Source: a virus | Direction: 5' to 3' (one strand) | Virus record (IMG/VR): IMGVR_UViG_3300010883_000685 | Span: 1-20,272 of that record | Length of the DNA stretch: 20,272 nt | In this document: positions 15,998 to 20,129 of the stretch, one piece after another | Numbering within the stretch: the first letter of the stretch is position 1 | How the letters are laid out: each line of letters begins with the position of its first letter | Position numbers and translations under genes: made by a program | Notes under the pieces: model-generated | What the model was told of the DNA's origin: nothing | What the model saw: only the letters and a program-made list of their open reading frames with translations | The model's database searches: none

Positions 15998-16458
15998 TAA
16001 TTTAAAAGTGTTTTATCGTTATCACAGCCTGGATTGATTAATGCCATCTTCTCAAGCTTTTTCATTGTTTTTATTAGTATTTTTGACAGCTTTACTATAA
16101 CTTTGTCAATATTAAGGTGCTCCCTCTCAATAGCACATAAATAACCTAAAGATGCCCAATAAACCATATTAGGTAAAGTGTAAAACCACTTATCCCTCAT
16201 TAAAGAGTCTTTGTACGCATAAGACCCTGTTTCATTGTGTACCTCTATAATTTCTGCCAATACAACCAGAAATTCCTCATAATCCTCATCTTCAACAGTA
16301 ATCCTATCCATAAGAGATTGAATCTCTTGTAAATACTCCACTATTATGCCTTGATGCCTTAAATTCATACAAAAAATATCTTGCTCAACATTCATGTTGG
16401 CAAGTATAGGAAAAATTTTACATTTTCTTAGTAAATGTTTGGAACATTTTAACCCCAT
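15997..16458 (-). CDS. Hypothetical protein (153 aa or 132 aa)
   Basis: Not recognised. The protein is largely alpha-helical with an acidic middle (ITVEDEDYEEFLVVLAEIIEVHNE), a Trp/Tyr-rich patch (DKWFYTLPNMVYWASLGYLC) and a basic C-terminal helix (VIVKLSKILIKTMKKLEKM). The first ATG (16458) overlaps the large-terminase stop by 10 bases. A second in-frame ATG at 16395 (MNVEQDIF) would remove an odd basic N-terminal segment and may be the true start. The stop overlaps the chaperone ATG by one base, so it belongs to the packaging/tail operon. Position between terminase and tail genes gives no firm function. Confidence 0.6.
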   Translation of the reverse strand: MGLKCSKHLLRKCKIFPILANMNVEQDIFCMNLRHQGIIVEYLQEIQSLMDRITVEDEDYEEFLVVLAEIIEVHNETGSYAYKDSLMRDKWFYTLPNMVYWASLGYLCAIEREHLNIDKVIVKLSKILIKTMKKLEKMALINPGCDNDKTLLN

Positions 16459-17762
16459 GCTAATATCTTATTACCTTTTCCGAATAAAAACCTCATTCTC
16501 ATCATTAAACTATCGGCATAATCAGGCGACCTTCCTATGGATTGCTTGATTTCTTTCTTAGATAGTATAGCTAATTTACCATCTAAGTCAATATTTTTTC
16601 TTCTACACACCTCTAACTCCTCAATTATCTTGTTGCGAATGTCAATATCCTTCTCTTTTATTAAAATATTACCTGCATTTATCTGTTCTGCTAGTTTATA
16701 ATAGCATTGTGTCTTTAAATTTTGGTAATTCTCAGCCTTTATTGCTTTTGAGTTGTTTATAAAGGGAGTAACCCCTTTCATGTAATGAGAAAGGTATTGT
16801 CCTACTCCATCAGAATCAATCACTATATTCTTTCTGCTAATCCCATGCTTCTCTGCCAAATCTTTAATTAACATTTCAATATGATTGGCTGAACTTTTAT
16901 CTTCTGTAATTATTTCCTCAACAGTAAGTCCTTTCCAGCGAGTTATAACCATTTTATCACTACCCATTAAAGCTACATCACAAGAAAGGAACGCTTCTTC
17001 ATCTTCCACTACCTTATTCTTAAAAACATTCAACAAAGCTTCATATTCAAACAGCTTATCCTTCCCCTCATCATATTCCCAGTTACCATGAAGAAGTCTT
17101 TCCCTTGATACAGGGTCAAGTTTTCTTAACTGCTCTTCATAAAATCCAGATATATGGGGGTTATCCTTTAGTTTTGCCTGAACAAATCGCTGGTGACTAG
17201 GTAGATTATCGTCCCTCCACTGTTTATAGAAGTCATATACCCAGTTCTTAGCTGGATTACAACTCATAAGTATCTTTGGCCGAAGGCCAAATTTCGCTAA
17301 TTGGTAGCGAATCCTTGATGCAACGACATTTTTCGCTTTTTCAGTACATTGATTCACCTCATCAATAAATGCCCCAGATATTTCCAGTGAACCAAGTGAG
17401 TCAAAATTAGGGTCGGCTGGATATTGATAAAGGTCTTTCAATAGAATTTGGCTGCCATTTACAAATTCAATAACATTAGATTGGGCATTAAACTTATATA
17501 CCTCTCCTTTTTTAACATTCCAGTCAGAACAAACGGTAAAGAAAGAATTAAGGGTTGTCTCTTTTAATGTCTTTAGTACGGCACGACCCATTAACCAGCG
17601 AGTTCCAGGGTATCTTAAACAAGAATACAACAACCAGGCTGCTCCGAAGTAAGATTTCCCACCACCAGCACTTCCCCCAAAGAGAATCTCGGAAGACTTT
17701 TCGTCATGCAAATACTCCCAAGCCTCATGCTGCTTTATGGTTGGGGTGAAATCAATCTTCAT
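16449..17762 (-). CDS. terL: Terminase large subunit (packaging ATPase and nuclease)
   Basis: The motor that pumps DNA into the prohead and cuts the concatemer. Residues 29-37 form Walker A (GGSAGGGKS), and A131-FIDE135 forms Walker B with the catalytic glutamate. A coupling-type motif LMSCNPA lies at 165-171. The C-terminal RNase H-like nuclease has D262 (SCDVALMGSDK), D316/D318 (IVIDSDGVG) and D414/D417 (SPDYADSLMM). The 437-residue length and TPTIKQHEAWEYL opening are typical of terminases of the Terminase_3/6 type. AAGAGG lies just before the ATG, which overlaps the end of a small membrane-protein gene by 11 bases. It appears complete and active. Confidence 0.94.
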   Translation of the reverse strand: MKIDFTPTIKQHEAWEYLHDEKSSEILFGGSAGGGKSYFGAAWLLYSCLRYPGTRWLMGRAVLKTLKETTLNSFFTVCSDWNVKKGEVYKFNAQSNVIEFVNGSQILLKDLYQYPADPNFDSLGSLEISGAFIDEVNQCTEKAKNVVASRIRYQLAKFGLRPKILMSCNPAKNWVYDFYKQWRDDNLPSHQRFVQAKLKDNPHISGFYEEQLRKLDPVSRERLLHGNWEYDEGKDKLFEYEALLNVFKNKVVEDEEAFLSCDVALMGSDKMVITRWKGLTVEEIITEDKSSANHIEMLIKDLAEKHGISRKNIVIDSDGVGQYLSHYMKGVTPFINNSKAIKAENYQNLKTQCYYKLAEQINAGNILIKEKDIDIRNKIIEELEVCRRKNIDLDGKLAILSKKEIKQSIGRSPDYADSLMMRMRFLFGKGNKILAWG

Positions 17763-18452: not shown

Positions 18453-18917
18453 CTAAATATCATTCTCCTCTCCTTCAGGCTTAGTATAATTAAACACAAA
18501 TGAATCTCCTCCACTAGTAACATCAACCCTGTCTATTGCCATACCCTTCATCTTTGCAATATCTTGTAACAGTAATCTACAGATGTTTAAATCTCCACTT
18601 CTATAACCCTTGCTATATAAGTCGTACAACATCATTGTATGCTTATCAACCTCATATTGCTTCTCTTCATCAAACTGCTCTTTAAAATACTGTAAAGCTC
18701 TCTTGTAATAGATTGAAGCTTGTCTTCTTTGAATCCCCCAATTCTTATCACAATACTCAATAATATCAGTATATCTAACTCCTTGTAATACTAATTTAAC
18801 AACCTCAGAAGTCCTCTTATGGGCCTCCAGCTTAGTAGCTTTACCTTCAAATTTAGTCTGAACATTATCCAGACCAATGGCAGTTATATCAGCTTTAATA
18901 TCTATCTTTTCTTCCAT
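18453..18917 (-). CDS. terS: Terminase small subunit (probable)
   Basis: Small terminases recognise the packaging site and load the large subunit. Residues about 33-75 form a helix-turn-helix-type DNA-binding region (HKRTSEVVKLVLQGVRYTDI, then WGIQRRQASIYYKRA), followed by a charged helical hairpin at about 78-126 (QFDEEKQYEVDKHTMMLYDL, YSKGYRSGDLNICRLLLQDI) typical of the oligomerisation part, and a short acidic tail. The 154-residue length and its place as first gene of the block carrying terL fit well. A predicted promoter ends about 28 bases upstream, so it probably leads the packaging/tail transcript. The large repeat-rich gap just upstream is a natural candidate for its binding site. 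Confidence 0.78.
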   Translation of the reverse strand: MEEKIDIKADITAIGLDNVQTKFEGKATKLEAHKRTSEVVKLVLQGVRYTDIIEYCDKNWGIQRRQASIYYKRALQYFKEQFDEEKQYEVDKHTMMLYDLYSKGYRSGDLNICRLLLQDIAKMKGMAIDRVDVTSGGDSFVFNYTKPEGEENDI

Positions 18918-18924
18918 TTTATTT

Positions 18925-19004
18925 AGTGCATAATAATTATTTTACAAATATACAAAAAAGTTTCTTACATGTCAAGGTAATATGTTACATAAAGTGCATA
19001 ATAA
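18925..19004. repeat. Direct repeat AGTGCATAATAA flanking the terS promoter
   Basis: Two identical 12-base copies at 18925-18936 and 18993-19004, same orientation, 68 bases apart, one just downstream of the -7 box and one upstream of the -33 box. This arrangement could be an operator pair for a phage regulator. An 8-base inverted match (TATGCACT, 20196-20203) lies downstream of the other predicted minus-strand promoter. Function is inferred. Confidence 0.45.
18945..18975 (-). promoter_or_regulatory. Predicted promoter of the terminase/tail operon
   Basis: Read on the minus strand: TTG (18975-18973), 20-base spacer, TATATTTG (18952-18945), an exact match to the Bacteroidetes -33/-7 consensus (TTG, TAnnTTTG). 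The start site would fall near 18938, giving a leader of about 20 bases before the small-terminase ATG. The copies of AGTGCATAATAA on both sides may be regulatory. Confidence 0.6.
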
Positions 19005-19182
19005 CTGGGGGTTGAAAATCTAGTGTGAATATCAGACTACCCTGTAATACAGGTCTTCACAGGTAAATTGGAATTTTTTTTTATTTTTTTTTATTTATTG
19101 CCTTATATCCCCCCTGAAGACTATCTATTGACTTGTATTAGTGTAATATAATGTTTATGAATTGCTACCCTATACCTACCCC

Positions 19183-19206
19183 CTCTCTCTCTCTCTCTCT
19201 CTCTCT
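19183..19206. repeat. (CT)12 dinucleotide run
   Basis: Twelve consecutive CT units on the + strand (GA on the - strand), a perfect polypyrimidine mirror repeat able in principle to form triplex (H-DNA) and prone to slippage. It borders the start of the TACC-type tract. No coding role is visible. Confidence 0.9.
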
Positions 19207-19225
19207 TTGTTTCTTTGTTTGTTGT

Positions 19226-19480
19226 TTACTCTCTGCCTACTACCTACCTACTGACTACCTACCTACTGACTGACTACCTACCTACTACCTACCTATTGAC
19301 TACCCTACTACTACCCTACTACTACCCCCTACTATCTACCTATTGACTGCCTACCCTACCCCTACCCTCTACCTACCCCCTACCTACTGCCTACCCTCTA
19401 CCCCTTAACTCTACCCCCTACCTCTACCCTCTACCCCCTACCTATTAACTGCCTATTGACTGACTGCCTGACTGACTGAC
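19226..19480. repeat. TACC/CCCTA/TGAC low-complexity tract, G-rich on the minus strand
   Basis: About 255 bases built almost entirely from degenerate 4-6 base units: CTAC/TACC, CCCTACTA, CTACCCC and, at the right end, TGAC/TGCC. Between 19303 and 19438 the + strand carries 12 runs of three or more C (five of them CCCCC or CCCC), separated mostly by 2-9 bases, so the - strand reads like GGGTA/GGGGTA repeats and could form G-quadruplexes. The same units resume at 19526-19575 beyond the terminator and run into the last codons of the 89-aa gene. Confidence 0.85.
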
Positions 19481-19483
19481 AAT

Positions 19484-19527
19484 AAAAAAAAAGCATAAAA
19501 AAAGAGGGGACAAATTGCCCCCCCTCT
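19484..19527 (-). terminator. Intrinsic terminator after the two-gene right operon
   Basis: On the minus strand AGAGGGG (19527-19521) pairs with CCCCTCT (19509-19503) around an 11-base loop and is followed at once by a run of seven T (19503-19497, sharing its first base with the stem), then, after ATGC, nine more T (19492-19484). This is a strong Rho-independent terminator lying about 35 bases beyond the stop of the 89-aa gene. Confidence 0.8.
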
Positions 19528-19560
19528 CTACTGCCTACCTACTACCTACCTACTACCTGC

Positions 19561-19830
19561 CTACTCTACTACTTCAATACTTAATATGGTTGTATATTCT
19601 TGCCAGAAACTACCACCTGAAAATTTAATAGATAAATCATAGTCAATACAATTAGTATTAAGATAATCTTTTATTTTTGCTATCTTATTAACTTTGCCAT
19701 CTTCCTCTATTGCTACTCTGAATTTATTATCTTTTCTTTTATATCGGCTAAAGGTATTATATATTAACTTTTCTACCTTGTTTAGTTGTTCGTTTAGTTG
19801 TTCGTTTAGTTGTTTGTTTGTTGTTTCCAT
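19561..19830 (-). CDS. Hypothetical protein with QLNE repeats (89 aa)
   Basis: Not recognised. The N-terminus carries a short tandem repeat, QLNE-QLNE-QLNK, encoded by three near-identical 12-base units (19781-19816), leading into a helix (KVEKLIYNTFSRYKRK) that may form a short coiled coil. The rest is beta-like (NKFRVAIEEDGKVNKI, YDLSIKFSGGSFWQEYTTIL). The ATG has the leader AATAAACAAAATG, the same as the next gene upstream, and lies 5 bases after that gene's stop. The last codons (GTAGTAGAGTAG) merge into the low-complexity tract, suggesting the tract has expanded into the gene end or the gene end was recruited from it. Confidence 0.62.
   Translation of the reverse strand: METTNKQLNEQLNEQLNKVEKLIYNTFSRYKRKDNKFRVAIEEDGKVNKIAKIKDYLNTNCIDYDLSIKFSGGSFWQEYTTILSIEVVE
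19781..19816 (-). repeat. Tandem 12-base repeat inside a gene (3 units)
   Basis: Three consecutive units reading TTTAGTTGTTCG, TTTAGTTGTTCG, TTTAGTTGTTTG on the + strand. They are in frame with the 89-aa gene and encode QLNE/QLNE/QLNK (one unit = four codons), so copy-number change would not shift the frame. Confidence 0.9.
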
Positions 19831-19835
19831 TTTGT

Positions 19836-20129
19836 TTATTTATTTAGGTTAGTTAGTTTTATTTTGTTTTCTTTTATTTCTTTTTCTATTTCTTGCCTAT
19901 TCATTAACATAAATTGATATAAGTACTTAGATGTTGTTCGGCTATACTCTAAAGCATAAGTATCTAACAATATATTTTTAGTATTATTTTTATACTCTAT
20001 TGTTGCAATTATAGTATCATAACTTTGGAATATGTGTTTACAATAATCTTTTTTTGTTTGTATTGTTTCAAATTGGTTAGCAATAAAATTGCCGTTTCTA
20101 CTTCTTAAATTTTTTGTTTTTGTTTTCAT
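19836..20129 (-). CDS. Hypothetical small phage protein (97 aa)
   Basis: First gene of the right-hand minus-strand operon. The N-terminus is basic (MKTKTKNLRSRNGNF). The centre has FQSYDTIIATIEYKNN, then TYALEYSRTTSKYLYQFMLM. This layout (a SYxTIxA-x-I strand pair followed by YSRTTSKYLYxF) recurs in small uncharacterised phage proteins; I know of no function. The C-terminus is a charged helix (RQEIEKEIKENKIKLTNLNK). The ATG is preceded by AATAAACAAAATG, and a consensus promoter lies about 95 bases upstream. Position outside the structural block and a strong terminator downstream suggest a separately timed, perhaps early, unit. Confidence 0.62.
   Translation of the reverse strand: MKTKTKNLRSRNGNFIANQFETIQTKKDYCKHIFQSYDTIIATIEYKNNTKNILLDTYALEYSRTTSKYLYQFMLMNRQEIEKEIKENKIKLTNLNK

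Follow-up and report, generated by a model that had tools for sequence, protein, structure and literature searches.

A replaceable G-rich repeat tract and its conserved neighbour before the putative small terminase gene of uncultured marine Bacteroidetes phages

The window analysed here, a stretch of 20,272 nucleotides from a linear IMG/VR virus record, carries a degenerate repeat tract between the terminator of one operon and the control region of the terminase operon. Related phages keep a tract at this position but change its sequence, its copy number and at times its presence, while some 150 bp next to it are conserved. On balance we favour the view, which we hold to be fairly likely, that the tract is slippage-prone, lineage-specific simple-sequence DNA in an untranscribed and weakly constrained spacer, and that the conserved neighbour is functional. 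The region beside the tract, rather than the tract, is probably the functional part. What the comparison shows directly is where the tract lies, that it turns over and can be dispensed with, and that its neighbour is conserved; slippage, a lack of function and a pac role for the neighbour are inferred.

The repeat tract and its setting

Read along the minus strand, ORF97 and ORF89 come first, followed by the terminator, the tract, the conserved region, a Bacteroidetes-type promoter, the putative terS and terL; the elements are as follows.

19836-20129, minus strand: ORF97, a small upstream-operon gene (open reading frame; phrog_21575, function unassigned)
19561-19830, minus strand: ORF89, with which the upstream operon ends (open reading frame)
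19528-19572, minus strand: first repeat piece (GGTAGTAGGTAGG), between the ORF89 stop and the terminator (Tandem Repeats Finder, sequence)
19499-19529, minus strand: intrinsic terminator of the upstream operon (terminator scan; DNA fold z -2.0)
19236-19480, minus strand: main tract, a satellite of degenerate GGTAG/GGGGTAG/GTCAGT units whose G-rich strand is the minus (terS-sense) one
19163-19235, minus strand: tract edge, with AACAAACAAAG, (GA)12 and GGGGGTAGGTATAGGGTAG (sequence, repeat finding, motif counts)
19137-19158, minus strand: block A (ATAAACATTATATTACACTAAT), bounding the tract on its right and found at the equivalent position in relatives
19073-19096, no strand: T9-A-T9 between blocks A and B, with A-tracts in 10-bp phase, a candidate for curved DNA from sequence
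19062-19070, minus strand: block B1 (ATTTACS; TTTACG), from the alignment of 40 sequences
19014-19036, minus strand: block B2, TCTGATATTCACACTAGATTTTC, more strongly conserved than any other non-coding element
18981-19004, minus strand: block C, imperfect palindrome TTATTATGCACTTTATGTAACATA with DnaA-box-like halves
18945-18975, minus strand: terS-operon promoter, TTGACA ... TATATTTG, Bacteroidetes type (promoter scan; position constant among close relatives)
18920-18936, minus strand: a further TTATGCACTA site, immediately before the terS start
18453-18917, minus strand: putative small terminase terS (HTH, helices, two C-terminal strands)
16449-17762, minus strand: large terminase terL (PF04466, PF03237, phrog_2)

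The C-richness first noticed on the plus strand is real. The 408 bp from 19168 to 19575 contain C166, G28, T122 and A92, and 12 C-runs of at least three fall within 136 bp from 19303, the top window of the whole sequence; 300 sequences simulated from the window with a first-order Markov model never exceeded nine. A stretch of 476 bp carries 31 copies of GGTAG. The accompanying (CT)12 and T9-A-T9 runs were both located, at 19183-19206 and 19073-19096. The original prediction took this interval for a single gene-free tract; the repeats are indeed there, but they form three pieces (19528-19572, 19236-19480 and about 19163-19206, by Tandem Repeats Finder and sequence), the first two split by the terminator at 19499-19529, and the tract edge touches the ORF89 stop codon. 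The tract does lie beside the putative terS, yet not directly upstream of it, since about 250 bp including the conserved region intervene. A likeness to telomeres had also been proposed, and is superficial: TTAGGG is absent from the tract, which is internal and built of degenerate units. The tract holds no strict quadruplex motif (four runs of G3+, loops 1-7) and only two when loops of up to 12 are allowed, together with several two-tetrad (G2) motifs; over 100 bp its G4Hunter score peaks at 1.57, compared with 0.69 or less elsewhere in the window. A search of Rfam gave no match.

The large terminase shares 52% identity with its counterpart in Flavobacterium phage 11b, its nearest PDB sequence is 4idh (‘Gene 2 protein’), and a TerL search in bacterial genomes gave no confirmed match. 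The terS assignment is putative, drawn from position, HTH and predicted fold elements; its AlphaFold model has a pLDDT of 63 and gave no usable Foldseek match and no informative PDB match, and the protein neither aligns to the neighbouring genes of phages 11b or phi10:1 nor matches 11b terS. A small gene similar to ORF89 and ending alike (...IKIE*) precedes the tract position in many relatives, many of which also have a terminator at the equivalent place; pattern matches to ORF89 in viral contigs failed confirmation. The start of ORF89 (19778-19826) is itself made of a 12-bp repeat (GTTTAGTTGTTC) encoding QLNEQLNE. Because the tract lies downstream of the terminator and upstream of the promoter, little transcription would be expected across it.

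Turnover of the tract in related phages

Two scans yielded about 100 related loci, in which the slot between terminator and block A is filled by a low-complexity stretch that differs, with its unit, from lineage to lineage; GGT/TGG repeats fill many slots. The GTAGG arrays that viral contigs carry elsewhere are short and in unrelated contexts. With slot boundaries placed automatically at the last T-run, and hence approximate, 27 of 32 lineages have more G than C on the terS-sense strand; among the exceptions are a CTCCAG unit and two stretches that probably contain coding sequence. Within a genome, G-richness often peaks and complexity is often lowest in the slot (not so in G006, G007 and G019). 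A G-rich tract is missing in about a quarter of lineages, the slot being plain AT-rich in L007, L010, L013 and L015. Its absence from these lineages establishes dispensability, not absence of effect.

Comparison of tract length and units between related genomes, as had been suggested, shows differences by lineage and even between near-identical phages. Contigs L072 and L168 show no difference over 1500 bp downstream (terS-terL), yet they are 12 bp of (GGT) repeat apart and also unlike in the spacer between blocks A and B, and L045 and L046, again identical downstream, have a G7 and a G5 run, respectively, in the slot. Variable repeat number is therefore seen in these relatives' tracts, not in the window's own. 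In more diverged pairs the terminase coding sequence is 95-97% identical and the slot only about 59-68%, and in one trio the values are 96% and 83%; recombination between phages may contribute to this turnover. Assemblies break here as well: 26 of 55 contigs end 75-500 bp upstream of B2, a per-base rate about five times that on either side (computed by hand), and the clustering may reflect low complexity. Of the earlier suggestions, that of a variable satellite is supported by these data.

Repeats also occur in other post-terminator spacers, with short ones about 1.6, 1.7 and 5.6 kb before B2 in G001, G014 and G019 (CTTGGGGGATTCYCTTTAGGGG, CTAATTGGTAG, AAATGGCCTGAGAAAATCGCAT), and G-richness above 0.6 at 2 of 26 terminators outside the slot. 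Because some such spacers are likewise G-rich or repeated, the data favour a general tendency of post-terminator spacers that is strongest at the terS slot. We suggest that the tract would grow and shrink by replication slippage and unequal recombination in a non-coding, normally untranscribed spacer reaching from the upstream-operon terminator to the terminase-operon control region. No sequence-specific role is proposed for it; its G-rich polarity would follow from the shared strand direction of the operons and the expansion of any short G-rich seed. However, neither the G-richness of the slot nor the 27 of 32 lineages with G>C on the same strand is obviously predicted by neutral drift alone, and this polarity is the main unexplained point, which keeps functional readings alive.

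The conserved region, packaging and replication

The region of about 150 bp to the right of the tract, before the putative terS, is present in more than 60 related contigs with its elements in fixed order (A, B1, B2, palindrome C, promoter), and blocks A, B and C are retained in about 38 distinct relatives; two rows of the 40-row block alignment (L152 and L171) are chance matches lacking the other blocks. Most related loci that extend far enough have the 23-bp element TCTRATATTCACACTAGATTTTC at an unchanged position ahead of terS. B2 (window 19014-19036; L002-L105, L147-L181) is a near-invariant non-coding element of an uncultured marine phage clade. The Bacteroidetes-type promoter consensus is TTG / TAnnTTTG. 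A blastn comparison of the region with annotated phages gave no match, and our search of the literature on phage repeats or quadruplexes beside terminase genes found nothing relevant. The conserved neighbour, and not the tract, is a candidate for a pac site, a late-control region or a second origin; the earlier placement of the tract beside a likely packaging or late-control region is supported. Most likely these 150 bp would combine an SPP1-like late promoter with packaging (pac) recognition, and they may also be bound by the phage's DnaA-domain-IV protein.

Relatives encode a lambda-O-like initiator (phrog_270) and a protein of 130-145 aa with a DnaA domain IV signature; a phage exonuclease (phrog_704) and RusA are also encoded. 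Proteins with the domain IV box-binding motif (NRDHSTI) occur in 16 complete or large relatives (loci include L138:1974-2390, L110:3112-3537, L120:18914-19306 and L112:18932-19354), and ten further relatives of the protein, when scanned, all match PF08299, nine above the curated cut-off. Across 12 related genomes, which are not independent, the 475-bp region contains 17 copies in all of the DnaA-box-like sequence TTWTNCACW, against about 1.2 expected from genome-wide counts; the sites lie in blocks A and C beside the tract and none inside it. The main replication origin is likely to lie in the lambda-O-like initiator gene, because 22-23-bp direct repeats occur within it in several relatives (L135:12760-13398, L110:1929-2534, L128:17952-18581). 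Cumulative GC skew mainly follows gene direction and locates no origin. One relative has a C5 cytosine methyltransferase in its early operon (L137:17868-19055).

Alternative roles and known systems

That the tract itself is the pac or cos site, as the original prediction allowed, we consider highly improbable. It lies beside the putative terS, and two contigs (L017, L026) start inside or at B2 and a third (L014) just after it, but contig ends are dense enough locally to give roughly these three, and a cos end at B2 was rejected on the same count. Sequence conservation is a property of the adjacent blocks and not of the tract, and a G-rich tract is lacking in about a quarter of lineages, blocks A, B and C being kept in all. 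A fixed cos end is also not favoured by several apparently complete contigs whose ends join into a circle, with the slot lying within it or at the junction. It is very unlikely that the region contains an origin, or a second origin resembling SPP1 oriR, for which the tract would serve to stall forks or open the strands. The enrichment of DnaA-box-like sites, the conserved DnaA-domain-IV protein and the likewise intergenic, AT-rich, direct-repeat nature of SPP1 oriR (PMC6316719) would suit it; the tract, however, is unconserved and free of such sites, and the repeats in the O-like gene point to a main origin there. An assembly artefact, which low complexity and the breaking of contigs in the slot could suggest, can practically be dismissed: an independent contig (L002) matching 4364 of 4365 bases starts inside the tract at 19249, agrees with the window up to that end and is identical to it in the flank, the (CT)12 run and the edge of the tract, and related tracts recur in many assemblies.

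The polarity leaves room for a small chance that selection keeps a polar G-rich, C-poor tract beside the packaging site whatever its unit, either as a recombination-proficient 3' strand at the unpackaged concatemer end or as a block to read-through. The recombination version, in which the tract is a recombination or end-protection element feeding concatemer formation, is unlikely. Terminase would cut to the right of the tract (A-C), leaving the G-rich strand running 5' to 3' towards the unpackaged concatemer end; after resection this strand would form a 3' tail, stable RecA-type filaments would assemble on its TGG-like repeats, and the end would reinvade. The fixed polarity, the GGT/TGG repeats of many slots, the encoded exonuclease and RusA and the greatest stability of RecA filaments on TGG repeats (PMC3763553) are consistent with this. 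Against it, the cut site is hypothetical, the window's own unit is GTAGG and not TGG, and about one lineage in four does without the tract. We also know of no Chi sequence for the hosts of these phages. The read-through version, in which the G-rich non-template strand acts as a roadblock or insulator that stops terminator read-through and shields the late promoter, is likewise unlikely: the tract does follow an intrinsic terminator, with its G-rich strand non-template for the upstream operon, but comparable G-richness is rare at other post-terminator spacers and the tract is absent in several lineages.

Preferring the slippage-prone spacer tells a showy, replaceable repeat apart from a previously unnoticed conserved neighbour, the probable packaging or late-control region, which deserves the greater attention of the two. 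Broken assemblies are partly explained by the repeat slot in this uncultured marine Bacteroidetes phage group, and the conserved blocks by terS, with the small DnaA-domain-IV protein, offer a clear target for work on the start of packaging or of late transcription.

The tract resembles variable-number intergenic tandem repeats in its copy-number change between otherwise identical genomes, its low constraint and its differing units, but differs from them in that position and G-strand polarity are kept across a phage clade despite unit change. With telomeric or G-quadruplex DNA it shares a G-rich strand, GGGTA-like units and a high G4Hunter score, though not the motifs or a terminal position in the record. 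To our knowledge SPP1 has no comparable satellite. By analogy SPP1 nevertheless appears the closest described layout: its pac (pacL-pacC-pacR) overlaps gene 1 as well as the PL promoters, and oriR serves as a second origin located between genes (PMC6316719), pacL being at the non-encapsidated end (PMC6316719, PMC4737164). Compared by layout and not by sequence, the phages described here would have in common with the SPP1 pac region a promoter, boxes in repeated copies and DNA with A-tracts immediately upstream of terS.
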